A stretch of 64,000 bases of DNA, from NCBI RefSeq assembly GCF_030373245.1, contig NZ_JAUCZF010000003.1, forward strand, positions 62,001-126,000. The letters are read 5' to 3'. This document shows, one piece after another, positions 23,627 to 29,608 of the stretch. Below the pieces are notes generated by a model. It saw only the letters and a list, made by a program, of their open reading frames with translations. It was not told where the DNA came from and did no database searches. A program made the translations under genes and the position numbers. The stretch is from Hydrogenophaga sp. (GTDB lineage: Bacteria; Pseudomonadota; Gammaproteobacteria; Burkholderiales; Burkholderiaceae_C). How positions within the stretch are numbered: position 1 is the first letter of the stretch; each line of letters begins with the position of its first letter.

Positions 23627-24009
23627 TGGAATCTCCGATGGGCCGTTTCGCCGCCGGGCGAATGCGCCAAGGACCAGTATCGCAGTCCTGAACCGGATGG
23701 GCGGAGTTTTCAGGGGCGCTTAAGAACCCTCCTGTTTGTGCCGCATTGCACACAAAAGTCCCTTCATGAACTTGAAAAAGTAGGTCAAACGGCACTACTT
23801 GCAACACAATGTTTCTGTTACCACTGGGCTTGCCCCTATGCGCCCCGAACCCGGCAGGTCGTCACCGCAACCGAGTGCAACTCCCTCGGCATCAAGGGCT
23901 CACCTCCAAACCGGCATTGGTTTGCCCGCCGGGCGTGCCTGCTGGAGTCAAGCCATCACGTGTTCGGTCGACCGCATGGCGCCCCTGCCACTCAAAAGAA
24001 ATCTGTCAC
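23627..24009. other. 383-bp intergenic region before the NTF2-like gene
   Basis: This divergent regulatory region lies between the flavoprotein and the membrane-anchored NTF2-like gene. It holds a CRP-like dyad (23737-23752) and moderately AT-rich sequence at about 23720-23820 that could hold promoters. I see no credible gene; the plus-strand frame open from 23809 is only the upstream extension of the gene starting at 24010. Confidence 0.6.
23737..23752. promoter_or_regulatory. CRP/FNR-like dyad TGTGC-N6-GCACA
   Basis: TGTGC (23737-23741) and GCACA (23748-23752) are perfect inverted repeats separated by 6 bp, the geometry of CRP-family sites (consensus TGTGA-N6-TCACA). It lies 111 bp upstream of the flavoprotein start and 258 bp upstream of the NTF2-like gene start. 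Confidence 0.4.
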
Positions 24010-24819
24010 ATGGAACGCATCAGGTACGCAATTGAAAAGGCCAGAGAGGCTGCCAATCAACGTCGGCTAGGGCAAGTGCCCACCGAAACGGGGGATGCAA
24101 TTGCCTGGGCCGCTTCGATGACACCCAAACCCTTGACGGGACCCGAGGCGCTGGCGCCAGAGGGCGCCGACCCACGTCGGCGCGTGCCTGTCGTGCTGTT
24201 GCTGGGTGTGGTCGCCCTGATCGCTGGATGGGCTTTGTGGTCAACCCAGCAGAGCGTACCAGCGCCCTCCAGCCCTTCGGCCACAGCCGCATCGTCCATC
24301 TTGGTCAACCCACCCAACCCAGGCGCTCAGCCGGTGCCCGCAGCGCCTCTTGTGGCCGCTGCGCCAATTCAAGCCCTCCCGGCCAGCCCGATGCAGGCTG
24401 CAATCACTGCACCAGAGCCTCCCAGCGCGCCGGAGGTTCTGCTGGTGGATCAGGTCGCGCGCGCAGTCGAGTCCTGGCGCCAGGACTGGGCTGCTCGCAA
24501 CATGATGGCCTACCTGGATCATTACAACGAGGCGTTCACGCCGGCAGACGGTGTGTCGCGCCGTGACTGGATCGCCAGTCGTTATCGCAATGTGGGCGGC
24601 CGTACCTCCATCGAGGTGCAGATCAAGGATCTGCAGATCTTTCCCCTGAGCGACGATCGGGTGCGAGTGGGCTTTTTGCAGGATTACGCCTCTGGCAGCT
24701 ACCGCGAGATCGCTCGGCCCAAGACGCTCGAACTCGTGCTTGGGCCTGATGACCGTTGGCGCATCGTGGGCGAATGGCAGGGTAAGCCCCCTGCGCTTGT
24801 GGCGTCAGACAATTCGTGA
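24010..24819 (+). CDS. Membrane-anchored protein with C-terminal NTF2-like/Cds6-type domain
   Basis: This 269-residue protein has three parts. The N-terminal cytoplasmic helix MERIRYAIEKAREAANQ resembles the opening of bacterial exopolysaccharide tyrosine kinases and GspB-like proteins. One transmembrane helix spans residues 60-78. An Ala/Pro-rich linker leads to a C-terminal domain (about 150-260) with VESWRQDWAARNMMAYLDHY and LVLGPDDRWRIVGEWQGK, typical of NTF2-like or Cds6 folds found in periplasmic proteins. The function is not known. The start was set by the family-like N-terminus; the ribosome site is weak. It lies just upstream of the DUF2853 gene and near the exosortase locus. Confidence 0.7.
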   Translation: MERIRYAIEKAREAANQRRLGQVPTETGDAIAWAASMTPKPLTGPEALAPEGADPRRRVPVVLLLGVVALIAGWALWSTQQSVPAPSSPSATAASSILVNPPNPGAQPVPAAPLVAAAPIQALPASPMQAAITAPEPPSAPEVLLVDQVARAVESWRQDWAARNMMAYLDHYNEAFTPADGVSRRDWIASRYRNVGGRTSIEVQIKDLQIFPLSDDRVRVGFLQDYASGSYREIARPKTLELVLGPDDRWRIVGEWQGKPPALVASDNS

Positions 24820-24892
24820 GCACCGCTGCTGCACAAAAATACTACTTTCAGCTTCCATAGTCGGGCCGACTGCGGCACACTTGAACCGCAGG

Positions 24893-24938
24893 GGGCAGAT
24901 TCCGACTCCCTGCTCCGTTCGACCCAGTCGATCTGCCC
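24893..24938 (+). repeat. Inverted repeat in the DUF2853 leader
   Basis: GGGCAGAT (24893-24900) and ATCTGCCC (24931-24938) are perfect 8-bp complements 30 nt apart. A smaller CTGCGG/CCGCAG stem (24870-24891) precedes them. The stem ends just before the AGGAG ribosome site, so folding could influence translation of the DUF2853 gene. Confidence 0.5.
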
Positions 24939-24954
24939 ATCACCAGGAGAAAAC

Positions 24955-25266
24955 ATGTCTGAATACCTCGCCGATGTCCGCAAGTACGCCCCCCAGGCCA
25001 GCGAAGCCGCTGTCAACGCCATCGTCAAGTACTGCGGGATCGCCCTGCGCAATGCCGATTCGTCACTGGTCTCGGGCACCGACCCGAAAGAACTGGCCAC
25101 GGTGCGCGACGGTTTTGCCGCCAAGAAGCTGGGCCTCTCGGCCGAAGCCGCCGATGCGGGCATTGCGCGCGTGGTGGAGAAGATGAAGGGTGTGAACCGC
25201 AAGAGCCGCGTCACTTTCTACTACCTGCTGGCCGAGGCCACCGGCTCGCTGAGCAAGCTCGGCTAA
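24955..25266 (+). CDS. DUF2853 family protein
   Basis: This 103-residue acidic-to-neutral, all-helical protein begins MSEYLADVRKYAPQASEAAVNAI and contains CGIALRNADSSLVSGTDPKELATV, recognisable as the DUF2853 family, whose function is unknown. It has no signal peptide or membrane segment, so it should be cytoplasmic. AGGAG precedes the ATG by a normal distance. It has its own structured leader and an intrinsic terminator, so it can be expressed alone. Confidence 0.8.
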   Translation: MSEYLADVRKYAPQASEAAVNAIVKYCGIALRNADSSLVSGTDPKELATVRDGFAAKKLGLSAEAADAGIARVVEKMKGVNRKSRVTFYYLLAEATGSLSKLG

Positions 25267-25287
25267 GCACCACAGAATCCCTCCAGG

Positions 25288-25314
25288 AAAACCGGTCAAT
25301 GGACCGGTTTTTTT
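25288..25314. terminator. Intrinsic terminator between convergent DUF2853 and exosortase genes
   Basis: AAAACCGGTC (25288-25297) pairs over ten bases with GACCGGTTTT (25302-25311) around an AATG loop, and a T-tract runs to 25314. It ends the DUF2853 transcript. The stem also carries four T residues at its end on the minus strand, so it may serve the exosortase transcript too. Confidence 0.9.
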
Positions 25315-25443
25315 CTGGTGCGATCGGACTCACGCGTCTTGCATGTTGCTAAGTTGCCAACACGTTCAACAGCGAAACGCCTGGGTGTGATGCGATGTGA
25401 AGCCTATGTTGCGCGATGTAGTACTGCTTTGCTCCAGCAGAAA

Positions 25444-27042
25444 CTACCAGAGCGACCAACTTCCGGTCGTCAATATGTAGACCGATAGCAGCCCGTTGGT
25501 CGTTGCATGAGCAACGAATGCATCGGCAATGTTGTTGCGATAGATTCGAACCAGTCCGTATGCCACTCCTGCAAGCAGACCAGCTATCCACGCACTATGG
25601 AGCATGCCAAACAGAATTGAGGATACGGCTAGTGCGAGCCATGGAAAATGTGTCCGTCCGTTCACGCTGTGGCCAGTACCAAGCCATTCGAACAGATAGC
25701 CACGAAAGGCAAGCTCCTCGGCCAGAGGCACGGTGATCACAGCACCCATGGTTCTGACCACCAGCCAAGCGATCAGCAGTCCGGAAGGTATCTCATGCAG
25801 GTGCTGGTCGATCATGGGGCTTGCTGCAGGATCGTCTGGAACCAGCAGCAGCCAGAGCAAGAACACCAGTACACCGACTGCCACCGCAAACCAGGTGACT
25901 CGAAACGAAATGCTGCGATAGTGCCGCCAGAGAAGGGCCAGTGCACATGCCGTGAGAACGACCCGAATCGGATACCACCAGTCGACTGTGATGGTCATGG
26001 CCGACGTGATGAGCGTCGCCGACAGCATCACCACCAGCGGGATCAGCAGCGCCATCCTGAAACTGATCGGCTGTGCGCTCAATGTTTGAGGTGATCGGCT
26101 GAACAGCGCGCTGCTGTGCGCTAGCAGCAGTATGCAGGCTGTGACCAGAACGAAACTGATCCAGCCGGCCATGCTGTGAAACCCGCCCAGCGCCAGCTCT
26201 GGCGAAATCTCGGCACCGATGCCAATCAATGCCGCGATGCGAAAGATATTGAACAGCCAGATCGTGGCCACGCCCAGGGGTAGCAGCAACAGCGCTTGGG
26301 GAAAGCGGAAATCCTGGCGGAAGATGGTCAGATAAAACCCGGTGAATATCAGCACCAGCCCGATGCCTTCGTAGCCGGAGCACACGGCTGCAATCTCAAC
26401 AACGAAGTCGCCGACCCCGAGAATGCGTTGCTGCGGGTCGACAACGACATCGGCGTAAAACAGCTGAAGCACTGAGGTTGCCACGTCAAAAGTGGCACCG
26501 CTTAGTGGATCCCACAGGCCCTGAGTAACCAGCGTGAATCCCCAGGTCAGCGTGGCGATGGCGCAGGCAAAACCAATGGTGATCGCCTCTTCCCGCGCAA
26601 ACCGTAGGCAAAATTTGATGGGAGCGATTGTGCTCAGCCAAAGCACTGCGACCAATACCAGTGCAGCCAACCAGAACAGGGGAAAAGGGATTGCAGGCCC
26701 TTCCCAACGACTCGTTGTCGTCGAAAAGACCAGGTAGGTCAGGGCGAAAAACAGCAGATAGGCGATGAGCTGCAGCGAGAGCCACAAATGGTAGCTATGA
26801 CCATCGGCGGCCACTTGTAGATGCCGGCTCCATTGCTTCAACCTGGGGCCCAGCGCCACCAGGAGCGCAACGACCCAGATGAACAGGATTTTTGATGCAG
26901 CACCTGCATGCCCCAACCACCCATAGCCGGCCGCGGCGTGCTGTTGCGGCAGTGTGCTCGCATCAAAAGCAACAGAGATTGCCAAAGCCTCGCCAACAAT
27001 CAGCAGAACGAGCGAGAAAAGTCGGGCGGTGGTGGTTCGCAT
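25444..27042 (-). CDS. xrtE: Exosortase E fused to CAAX-type (CPBP) protease, VPEID-CTERM system
   Basis: This 532-residue polytopic membrane enzyme has two catalytic units. The exosortase half carries the triad Cys221 (AAVCSGYEG), Arg268 (FNIFRIAALIG) and His289 (GGFHSMAGW), as in proteases that cleave C-terminal sorting signals. The C-terminal half is a CPBP/CAAX-type intramembrane protease: AEELAFRGYLFEW (Glu442, Glu443), FGMLHSAW (His482) and AHATTNG (His512). This fusion is the known layout of exosortase E. The ATG at 27042 was chosen over the adjacent TTG. The gene lies 105 bp downstream of a gene for a VPELDG-type sorting substrate, its probable target. It looks less GC-rich than its neighbours. 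Confidence 0.92.
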   Translation of the reverse strand: MRTTTARLFSLVLLIVGEALAISVAFDASTLPQQHAAAGYGWLGHAGAASKILFIWVVALLVALGPRLKQWSRHLQVAADGHSYHLWLSLQLIAYLLFFALTYLVFSTTTSRWEGPAIPFPLFWLAALVLVAVLWLSTIAPIKFCLRFAREEAITIGFACAIATLTWGFTLVTQGLWDPLSGATFDVATSVLQLFYADVVVDPQQRILGVGDFVVEIAAVCSGYEGIGLVLIFTGFYLTIFRQDFRFPQALLLLPLGVATIWLFNIFRIAALIGIGAEISPELALGGFHSMAGWISFVLVTACILLLAHSSALFSRSPQTLSAQPISFRMALLIPLVVMLSATLITSAMTITVDWWYPIRVVLTACALALLWRHYRSISFRVTWFAVAVGVLVFLLWLLLVPDDPAASPMIDQHLHEIPSGLLIAWLVVRTMGAVITVPLAEELAFRGYLFEWLGTGHSVNGRTHFPWLALAVSSILFGMLHSAWIAGLLAGVAYGLVRIYRNNIADAFVAHATTNGLLSVYILTTGSWSLW

Positions 27043-27147
27043 CAACGAGCAAACAACCCAGCACGAGCCGTTGCAGATCAGGTGCTGGATTGTGGATGGC
27101 CTCTCAACCGACCAAGGGAAACGGCCAGTTGGCAGATGGAGAAAGGA

Positions 27148-27420
27148 TCAGCGCGAGCGACGCTTCTCGCGAATCAGGCCACCCACGGCGAGGGTCAACC
27201 CAAGCGCCATCACTGCCATGCTGCCATCCAGCTCCGGTACGGCCGTCGGCTTGGTCGCCGTCGCGTTGCTTTTGCTTCCCCTGTTGTCGGGTTTCTCTGT
27301 TTTTTCTTTCAAGCTATTCATTGCAAAGTCACGCTTGATGCCGCTGGAGTTACCGAAAGCCATAGCGTTGCTAGCGAGGAGCAGGCCCACAAGCAGTGCA
27401 AGAGGAGTCTTGTAAGTCAT
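27148..27420 (-). CDS. VPEID-CTERM sorting-domain protein, predicted exosortase E substrate
   Basis: This 90-residue protein has a Sec signal peptide (about 1-21, ending SNAMA) and a Ser/Asn/Lys/Thr-rich mature segment (22-60). Its C-terminal tripartite sorting signal consists of VPELDG (61-66), a transmembrane helix (about 68-83) and the basic tail REKRRSR. The motif is a Leu variant of the VPEID signature recognised by exosortase E. Cleavage at the motif would leave a peptide of only about 40 residues. It lies directly upstream of the exosortase gene on the same strand. The coding sequence is visibly AT-richer than the surrounding genes, hinting at transfer. Confidence 0.85.
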   Translation of the reverse strand: MTYKTPLALLVGLLLASNAMAFGNSSGIKRDFAMNSLKEKTEKPDNRGSKSNATATKPTAVPELDGSMAVMALGLTLAVGGLIREKRRSR

Positions 27421-27463
27421 TTTTTCCGATCGAACATGTAATAAAAACAGACTAAAACTTTGC

Positions 27464-27480
27464 TGTAAACACTGTCTACA
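27464..27480. promoter_or_regulatory. 17-bp imperfect dyad upstream of the VPEID-CTERM gene
   Basis: TGTAAAC-ACT-GTCTACA has 7-bp arms with one mismatch. It lies 44-60 bp before the ATG of the sorting substrate, at promoter distance, and is a candidate regulator-binding site for the exosortase E unit. Confidence 0.45.
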
Positions 27481-27713
27481 TGCCTAAATGTTAACTTATT
27501 TGCTTATTCGTTAGTAAATGTTTCGGTCGGTTGCCGTGAGATTTTTCGCATCTCTATGGAGTTGGCATAGGCTGAGAGGGAAATGATGACCACCTGAATC
27601 GCAGGCCGTGCTTCCAGGGTTTCTCTCATCTCGGCTTTGATCAGCTGAATGGCAGGTCAAAGCTTCAAGCGCAGATGCTCAAGGCGCATACTCACCGCAT
27701 CGCTTCAACGAGC

Positions 27714-27745
27714 AAAAATGCCCCGGACGGTTTCCCGCCCGGGGC
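27714..27745 (-). terminator. Intrinsic terminator of the pyruvate dehydrogenase operon
   Basis: Read on the minus strand, GCCCCGG pairs with CCGGGGC (27739-27745 with 27720-27726), with three more pairs beyond a mismatch, and is followed by TTTTT (27718-27714). It lies 28 bp after the lpdA stop. Confidence 0.9.
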
Positions 27746-27772
27746 TTTCGCTTTGTGCAGCGCTAAGTACGC

Positions 27773-29608
27773 CTACTTTTTCGCAGGCGGCAGATCCGTG
27801 CAAGACCCGTGCGCCACTTCCGCCGCCATGCCGATGCTCTCGCCCAGCGTGGGGTGTGGGTGGATGGTCTTGCCGATGTCCACCGCGTCGGCGCCCATCT
27901 CGATGGCGAGAGCGATCTCGCCGATCATGTCGCCGGCGTGCGTGCCGACCATGCCGCCGCCCAGGATCTTGCCGTGGCCATGGGCCTCCGGACTGTCGTC
28001 GAACAGCAGCTTGGTGACGCCTTCATCGCGGCCGTTGGCGATGGCGCGGCCTGATGCCGTCCAGGGGAACAGGCCCTTCTTGACCTTGATGCCCTGCGCC
28101 TTGGCCTGGTCTTCCGTGAGACCCACCCAGGCCACCTCGGGGTCGGTGTAGGCCACGCTTGGAATGACGCGGGCGTTGAACGCGGCGGCTGCCAGCTCTT
28201 TGTTGTCTTGCAGTTCACCGGCAATCACTTCAGCTGCCACGTGCGCCTCGTGCACCGCCTTGTGCGCCAGCATGGGCTGGCCCACGATGTCGCCGATGGC
28301 GAAGATGTGCGGCACGTTGGTGCGCATCTGGATGTCGACATTGATGAAGCCACGGTCGGTCACGGCCACACCGGCCTTGTCGGCAGCGATCTTCTTGCCG
28401 TTGGGCGTGCGGCCTACGGCCTGCAGCACCAGGTCGTACACCTGTGGCGCGGGGGCGGTACCGCCCTCTTCCGCTGCCGCGAACGTCACCTCGATGCCTT
28501 CGGGCGTGGCCTTGGCCCCCACCGTCTTGGTCTTGAGCATGATGTTGTCGAAGCGGTGGGCGTTCATCTTCTGCCAGATCTTGACCAGGTCGCGGTCGGC
28601 GCCCTGCATCAGGCCGTCCATCATCTCCACCACGTCCAGTCGGGCACCCAGCGTGCTGTAGACCGTGCCCATTTCCAGGCCGATGATGCCGCCGCCCAAG
28701 ATCAGCATGCGCTTGGGCACTTCCTTGAGCGCGAGCGCGCCGGTGCTGTCGACCACGCGCGGATCGTCGGGCATGAAAGGCAGGCGCACGGCTTGCGAAC
28801 CAGCGGCGATGATGGCTTTCTTGAAAGCCACGGTCTGCTTTTTGCCGGTTTTCTCCTGGGCTGTGCCGCTGGTTTCTTCCACCTCCAGGTGGTTGGCGCC
28901 GACAAACGAACCGTATCCGCGCACGATGGTGACCTTGCGCATCTTGGCCATGGCGGCCAGGCCGCCGGTGAGCTTGCCAATGACCTTTTCTTTGTGGGTG
29001 CGCAGTTTGTTGATGTCGACCTTGGGCGCACCGAAGTCCACGCCCAGATCGGCCATGTGGCTGACTTCGTCCATCACCGCGGCCACGTGCAGCAGCGCTT
29101 TGGACGGGATGCAACCCACGTTCAGACAAACGCCGCCAATGGTGGCGTACCGCTCCACGAGCACCACTTTGAGGCCCAGGTCGGCGGCGCGGAACGCGGC
29201 GGAATAACCACCGGGACCGCCGCCGAGCACGAGCAGGTCGCAATCCATATCTGCTGAACCGCCGAAGCTCGCGGCTGCAGGCGCCACCACCGGAGCGGGG
29301 GCAGCAGCAGCGGGCGCCGGTGCAGCCGCTGCGGGCGAAGCGGCGGGCGCCGCAGGAGCGCTGGCGGCGCCCGCAGCTTCGAGCACCAGCACCACGCTGC
29401 CCTGCTTGACCTTGTCGCCCAGCTTCACCTTGAGTTCTTTCACCACGCCGGCGTGCGACGAGGGGATTTCCATCGAAGCCTTGTCCGACTCCACGGTGAT
29501 GAGCGATTGCTCGGCCTTGACGGTGTCGCCGGATTTGACCAGCAACTCGATGACCGCCACTTCGTCGAAGTCGCCAATGTCGGGAACTTGAATATCGATC
29601 AGTGCCAT
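27773..29608 (-). CDS. lpdA: Dihydrolipoyl dehydrogenase (E3) with N-terminal lipoyl domain
   Basis: This 611-residue E3 component of the pyruvate dehydrogenase complex reoxidises dihydrolipoamide with NAD+. A lipoyl domain occupies residues 1-80 (lipoylated Lys43 in ESDKASMEI), followed by an Ala/Pro linker. The flavoprotein part has GGGPGGYSA (129 onward) and the redox disulfide [13 protein letters not shown] (Cys161, Cys166). A lipoyl domain on E3 is known from Cupriavidus and Neisseria enzymes but absent from the E. coli type. It starts at ATG with an AAGGAA site, nine bases after the aceF stop, and is the last gene before the terminator. Confidence 0.97.

Follow-up and report, generated by a model that had tools for sequence, protein, structure and literature searches.

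A gene for a 90-residue protein lies directly upstream of a gene for an exosortase fused to a CPBP protease in the 64,000-nucleotide stretch of Hydrogenophaga sp. DNA analysed here (the window), raising the question of whether the two genes form a protein-sorting unit dedicated to a single substrate, and whether such a unit is unusual. We consider it probable (roughly 0.78) that they do, with the small protein as the substrate that the fusion enzyme (XrtE) would cut and anchor. The features of the locus are:

25444..27042 (-), exosortase E/CPBP protease fusion (XrtE), 532 aa from ATG; TIGR04162
25492..25767 (-), CPBP/Rce1-like glutamic protease domain, residues 426-517 (E442, E443, R447, H482, H512, N516); PF02517, 53.8 bits
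26116..26919 (-), exosortase domain, residues 42-309 (C221, R268, H289); PF09721, 41.1 bits; TIGR04178, 54.8 bits
27043..27147 (-), 105-bp spacer between substrate and enzyme genes; similar in length in four Hydrogenophaga genomes by alignment
27148..27420 (-), substrate gene, 90 aa; ORF, tail-model match at E 2.6e-13 and same-site orthologs
27151..27240 (-), putative sorting tail, residues 61-90: VPELDG, hydrophobic helix, basic end REKRRSR
27241..27357 (-), mature segment (passenger), residues 22-60, 39 aa, polar; from comparison with L080 and L081
27358..27420 (-), predicted Sec signal peptide, residues 1-21, ending ANAMA with F next; read from sequence
27720..27745 (-), terminator-like hairpin and T run after lpd; terminator scan

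The originally predicted exosortase E/CPBP fusion passed the TIGRFAM check suggested for it, as XrtE matched TIGR04162 ('exosortase E/protease, VPEID-CTERM system') at 238.1 bits against a cut-off of 150, over positions 2-515 of the 516 in the profile, and both the exosortase Cys/Arg/His set and the CPBP protease site were present as described. TIGR03008 also matched the enzyme, at 134 bits over residues 334-532, and an alternative TTG start one codon earlier would give a protein of 533 aa. Residues C221, R268, H289, E442, E443, R447 and H482 were invariant in all 90 of the 90 aligned enzymes, and H512 and N516 in 89, the remaining row being gapped there. From family knowledge we take the Cys/Arg/His and the CPBP EExxxR/H/HxxxN sets to be catalytic, and since both are invariant across the 90 enzymes, both active sites seem to be needed. 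Foldseek with a confident AlphaFold2 model of XrtE (mean pLDDT 85.9, pTM 0.73) returned nothing from the PDB at E≤0.001, so the model adds no distant relative, and a sequence-profile search of the PDB gave no match at E≤1.

The 90-residue protein reads as MTYKTPLALLVGLLLASNAMA, then 39 aa, then VPELDGSMAVMALGLTLAVGGLIREKRRSR, with the signal peptide, VPELDG, helix and basic tail that had been attributed to it. Its same-site orthologs in three other Hydrogenophaga genomes (L080, L081 and L082) are 92%, 49% and 48% identical to it, and a heuristic rule placed their signal-peptide site at residue 21. No curated family in NCBIfam or Pfam scored above cut-off for the substrate, and the VPEID-CTERM model TIGR04161 (cut-off 33 bits) gave no match to it in a search of its own genome even at E≤10, showing that it fails the curated tail model despite having the same layout. 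It does match the tail definition built here, being a signal-peptide protein beside xrtE with a PE[ILM]-D motif, a helix and a basic end.

Searching the 3.86-Mb, 90.85%-complete assembly with a tail model (A2) made from 25 tails adjoining xrtE genes found a single good match, the substrate (52.5 bits, E 2.6e-13), with the next at E 0.71; the window tail is one row of A2, which favours its own score and does not favour the absence of a second match. The claim of one dedicated substrate was thus borne out by a genome scan for similar C-termini, as far as the assembly's 90.85% completeness reaches, and the one target lies beside its enzyme, as in a dedicated system. When A2 was run at E≤0.1 against 30 other XrtE genomes, 17 had exactly one match and 13 had 2-8; these genomes were drawn from 80 genome loci, many of which supplied A2 rows, so a first match is expected.

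The pair had further been called unusually minimal, a view that a survey of other XrtE loci overturned. The survey covered 89 loci, nine of them alphaproteobacterial plasmid loci (of 13 such records) and the others the best 80 of 415 relatives, which were filtered for ORFs with a signal peptide, PE[ILVM], a helix and a basic tail. Such tail ORFs occurred in 57 of the 89 loci, a lower bound given that the filters miss small VPEID-tail proteins in L065, L066 and L069, the last of these annotated. All 71 ORFs found lie on the xrtE strand, 66 upstream and five downstream at distances of up to 3.6 kb, and 52 loci have one upstream within 800 bp, 29 within 250 bp. A match in L107 was excluded from the counts as a false positive. 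The same filter found no tail ORF in 199,896 control bases, taken without taxon matching from short stretches beside other matches in the family and class of the window. At least six of the 32 loci without a tail ORF under these filters have little upstream sequence; in the first scan, six of 26 loci without a match had under 1.4 kb upstream. These results show that the pair is a known kind of system and that a small tail protein upstream of xrtE is its usual arrangement. Single-target 'dedicated systems' of sorting enzymes were moreover already an established concept, described in 2011 (PMC3237569).

A literature search on the exosortase E/VPEID-CTERM system found no paper on it. Two variations on the layout were seen among the surveyed loci. 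In L126, L135, L150, L158, L087, L115 and L122, a single xrtE is preceded by two or three VPEI mini-proteins whose passengers are very short. In four gammaproteobacterial loci (L085 2993-3841, L086, L087 and L088) a gene of the fatty-acid hydroxylase family starts 13-29 bp after xrtE; the L085 copy is over the cut-off for PF04116 and weakly resembles the ornithine-lipid hydroxylase OlsE, and hydroxylase-like genes in L133 and L139 lie farther away. The hydroxylase gene is a possible hint at a lipid acceptor.

Around the unit itself, the hairpin after lpd suggests that the two genes would be transcribed apart from those upstream; the region holds 4 terminator-like sites against 3.5 expected from shuffles, so this call rests on the 11-pair GC-rich stem and its position. 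A promoter scan around the unit found no sigma-70-like site, and a search of window positions 24000-29000 found no known RNA family at gathering threshold. The statement that no polysaccharide cluster adjoins the unit agreed with the part of the surroundings scanned with Pfam, 14 neighbouring proteins, among which there were no polysaccharide genes (35 ORFs were predicted besides the unit). A Cds6_C (NTF2-like) domain protein at 23809-24819 and the adjoining DUF2853 are ordinary neighbours. Simple ORF pickers run on the window's clade found no recurring neighbour hinting at function, apart from the genes that mark the common site. AT-richness is not peculiar to the substrate gene, as had been thought: it has 57.1% GC against 57.2% for the enzyme gene (64.0% for the window), and the AT-rich stretches are codons 1-59 of the substrate gene (52% GC) and the intergenic region upstream (47% GC).

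XrtE is sparsely distributed in the surrounding lineages. Among 399 sampled genomes of the family, the only full-length XrtE was the window's own, the other matches listed beginning at residue 301 or later, in the CPBP half, and among 369 sampled genomes of the class the window's enzyme was again the only one above cut-off. Within the genus, five of 67 genomes have it. The three Hydrogenophaga MAGs L080, L081 and L082 carry the unit at the same site, after aceE-aceF-lpd (names read from translations, not from a family search), with 81-87% enzyme identity, and DUF2853 lies on the other side in L080 and L081 as well; with such flanks in common, contamination of the MAGs is unlikely. In L083, the fifth member, xrtE and lpd are on different contigs. 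The region around lpd was read in 24 further genomes of the genus, one of which has the unit within 1.5 kb after lpd; the other 23 do not have it there. What appears by eye to be the start of an IS3-type transposase gene lies downstream of lpd in a relative from the genus, L172 (G839). The site after lpd may be open to insertions.

In a quick enzyme tree (midpoint root, SH-aLRT supports), the five genus members grouped together as a clade (100); L084, L086 and L089 attach to it (97), and L085, L087 and L088 complete a set of 11 (97). Submitters labelled L084-L089 gammaproteobacterial. The pairing of the window with L080 had a support of 88 in this whole-protein tree and is valid for the front part of the enzyme only. 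Because the enzyme branches among gammaproteobacterial ones and the unit has 57% GC against 64% for the window, transfer of the whole unit from a gammaproteobacterium into the window's lineage is suggested. Acquisition by transfer had been argued from the AT-richness of the substrate gene; that argument fell, and what favours transfer, of the whole unit, is the tree and the patchy distribution in the genus (5/67 genomes).

Alignment of the Hydrogenophaga units separated what is kept from what is exchanged. The tail matches that of the window at 30/30 residues in L080 and 29/30 in both L081 and L082, and the mature segment at 34/39 in L080 and 4/39 in L081; window-L081 DNA identity in 60-column blocks was 0.27 in the mature segment and 0.88 in the tail. 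Since certain features (ALAQS..., RAVPELDG) are common to L081, L082 and the outgroup L083, the window/L080 type looks derived, and the simpler reading is that the mature segment was replaced in an ancestor of the window and L080, probably together with the promoter region. Fast divergence was considered as well and set aside: enzyme codons 1-310 differ from the window's at 31 residues in L080 and 48 in L081, and the segment at 5 and 35 of 39, so replacement is the simpler account. Against replacement count the segment length of 39 aa in the window, L080, L081 and L082 and the 11/21 residues common to the signal peptides of the two types, which also blur its 5' limit.

Mosaic structure shows in the enzyme gene as well. 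As far as roughly codon 280 the window's gene mostly matches L080 best, with L081 marginally ahead in block 201-240. Across the CPBP half, about codons 361-532, L081 is the best match in all blocks but 361-400; from codon 401, DNA identity was 0.83-0.89 to L081 versus 0.63-0.76 to L080. Together with the segment replacement, this indicates that the unit exchanges pieces among its Hydrogenophaga relatives, as judged from the alignments. Between the window and L080, dN and dS were 0 and 0.35 in the tail, 0.056 and 0.37 in the passenger, 0.051 and 0.32 in enzyme codons 1-310, and 0.104 and 1.32 in codons 311-532. For the mature segment, dN/dS was ~0.15 between the window and L080 and ~0.19 between L081 and L082, with 17/39 residues changed. 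The comparable parts are thus under purifying selection: the tail and enzyme in the pairs compared, and the mature segment in window-L080 and L081-L082.

Elsewhere the passenger can nearly vanish. Using a simple heuristic signal-peptide rule on the 71 survey substrates, counted apart from the window's own protein, we found mature segments of ≤6 residues in 23/71 and ≤14 in 36/71, with the ≤6 class making up 11/13 in Acidobacteriota and 8/15 in Planctomycetota. The window's clade relatives have 39, 39, 39 and 51 aa, and several relatives have passengers of 99-305 aa. Keeping tail and enzyme while the mature segment is swapped or near absent calls a simple cargo view of the family into question.

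Large adhesin-like proteins adjoin some of these units. In five alphaproteobacterial loci (L064 1107-4001, L065 2625-4058, L067 1250-4216, L071 2157-4175 and L156 1263-4190) the mini-protein gene is preceded by one for a large protein; all five large proteins have a C-terminal domain in common, and SdrD_B repeats occur in four. The common domain of ~130 aa contains QxAIWxLxD and, in 4/5, a final DCLC; the L067 protein matched the Pfam thioester domain (TED) below threshold (E 8.7e-4), and we take the Cys and QxAIW to resemble those of thioester adhesins. In seven planctomycete loci (L106, L113, L118, L120, L136, L148 and L152) an SdrD_B protein adjoins xrtE downstream on the same strand, and several of these begin with an LEPRxLL-like stretch. 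Five of the 12 matches in the SdrD_B scan were loci whose sequences had built the model, and a match in L150, to a fragment that lies 4.7 kb off on the opposite strand, was not counted as a neighbour. A 333,480-base control, made up of short loci without planctomycetes, held no such large SdrD_B protein. None of the eight large proteins that end inside their locus has a PEI tail at its end, and four planctomycete ones run off the locus. Where a large protein and a measured mini-protein occur together, the shortest passenger is ≤13 residues in 9/9 loci versus 17/48 other loci, a comparison that does not separate the trait from lineage. One SdrD_B protein in the window's genome passes the cut-off; it is encoded on a different contig.

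From this co-occurrence of short passengers and tail-less large neighbours one could imagine that in many XrtE systems the VPEID protein is a near passenger-free two-helix hook supplying the sorting signal in trans. XrtE would then join the tiny mature peptide, or an acceptor that it carries, to the adjacent SdrD_B or thioester-domain-like surface protein, and the window's unit would be a variant with its own replaceable 39-aa segment. We regard this as a speculative idea that is quite unlikely to be right.

For the window, the dedicated sorting unit suggests the following mechanism. Sec would export the 90-aa protein and its signal peptide would be removed, leaving it held in the inner membrane by the C-terminal helix and basic end. 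The exosortase half (C221/R268/H289) would then cut near VPE-LDG. Exosortases are thought to transfer the cut C-terminus to a lipid or glycan acceptor, and by analogy this half would probably pass the new C-terminus to one. The CPBP half (E442/E443/R447/H482/H512/N516) would make a second intramembrane cut, most likely to clear or trim the tail remnant. A CPBP enzyme on its own can cut and sort a tripartite tail, as experiments have established for myxosortase, which cuts MYXO-CTERM, in E. coli too (PMC11980579). Computed support for the sorting unit comes from the enzyme family, the intact conserved sites, the one-to-one pairing in the assembly, purifying selection and conserved adjacency. 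Counted against it are the failure of TIGR04161 on the substrate, the 32/89 loci without a tail ORF, the lack of a similar solved structure by profile search or Foldseek, and the near-absent mature segments in other phyla, which would be odd if the purpose were cargo display.

That last point leads to another reading, in which the small protein is a working partner or precursor and not cargo: a two-helix membrane peptide that XrtE cleaves so as to free or anchor a very short peptide, or that serves to prime or regulate the enzyme. The many segments of ≤6 or ≤14 aa fit this idea, as does replacement of the segment between close relatives while the tail stays. The 39-51 aa of the window's clade, with purifying selection between the window and L080 (dN/dS ~0.15), and the passengers of 99-305 aa in several relatives do not, and the signal-peptide sites behind the short lengths rest on a heuristic, so that we judge it unlikely for this locus.

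The genome also encodes a second exosortase, XrtB fused to EpsI (TIGR03113, 389 bits), and, no more than ~20 kb from it on contig C1 (G000:C1:582155-619976), three PEP-CTERM proteins that pass the cut-off, so XrtB might process the substrate as a PEP-CTERM protein and leave XrtE to act on something else. We find this very improbable, as the PEP-CTERM model (PF07589) did not list the substrate among its matches even at E≤10, which makes the two systems look separate; the substrate gene adjoins xrtE on a contig other than XrtB's, and like tail proteins accompany xrtE elsewhere. Patchiness in the genus (5/67 genomes) and a GC content below that of the window could also point to what is left of a mobile element, decaying and no longer functional. 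Against this, the frames are open at the shared site in four genomes, the active sites are intact and, in the pairs compared, tail and enzyme have dN/dS far under 1, and we give this account hardly any credence. The dedicated sorting unit is thus the reading that we carry forward, and its interest lies in the surrounding survey results and in its size: with one substrate bearing a 39-aa mature segment, one enzyme and two mutable active sites, it is a very small, compact test system.

Set beside known systems, the unit is a real, intact and probably transferred member of the exosortase E systems. Like the exosortase E/VPEID-CTERM pair defined by TIGR04162 and TIGR04161, it combines a full-length enzyme over the TIGR04162 cut-off with an adjacent small signal-peptide protein whose tail is of the PE[I/L] type, an arrangement also seen on several Rhodobacterales plasmids. 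It differs in having VPELDG instead of VPEID, with no TIGR04161 match, in an enzyme from a gamma/betaproteobacterial branch, and in its surroundings, since several plasmid loci lie near polysaccharide genes and none was among the window's scanned neighbours. With MrtJ/JDVT-CTERM, likewise a two-gene enzyme-target unit in beta- and gammaproteobacteria (PMC11980579), and with myxosortase/MYXO-CTERM it shares a CPBP glutamic protease and a tripartite C-terminal tail; the window's CPBP domain, unlike theirs, is fused to an exosortase, its tail lacks Cys, and the MrtJ model NF033192 matched the enzyme weakly (30.9 bits, cut-off 75). The exosortase domain and tail layout are common to the XrtA/XrtB PEP-CTERM/EpsH systems, among which four EpsH-CAAX protease fusions were recorded in 2006 (PMC1569441). 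XrtA/XrtB-type systems as a rule handle many PEP-CTERM targets and are associated with exopolysaccharide loci (PMC1569441, PMC3237569), and the XrtB of this genome with its three PEP-CTERM proteins is such a system, unlike the window's unit. In rhombosortase/GlyGly-CTERM, enzyme and target are usually side by side when there is a single target (PMC3237569), and the window's enzyme likewise adjoins its one target, although the two protease families are unrelated.
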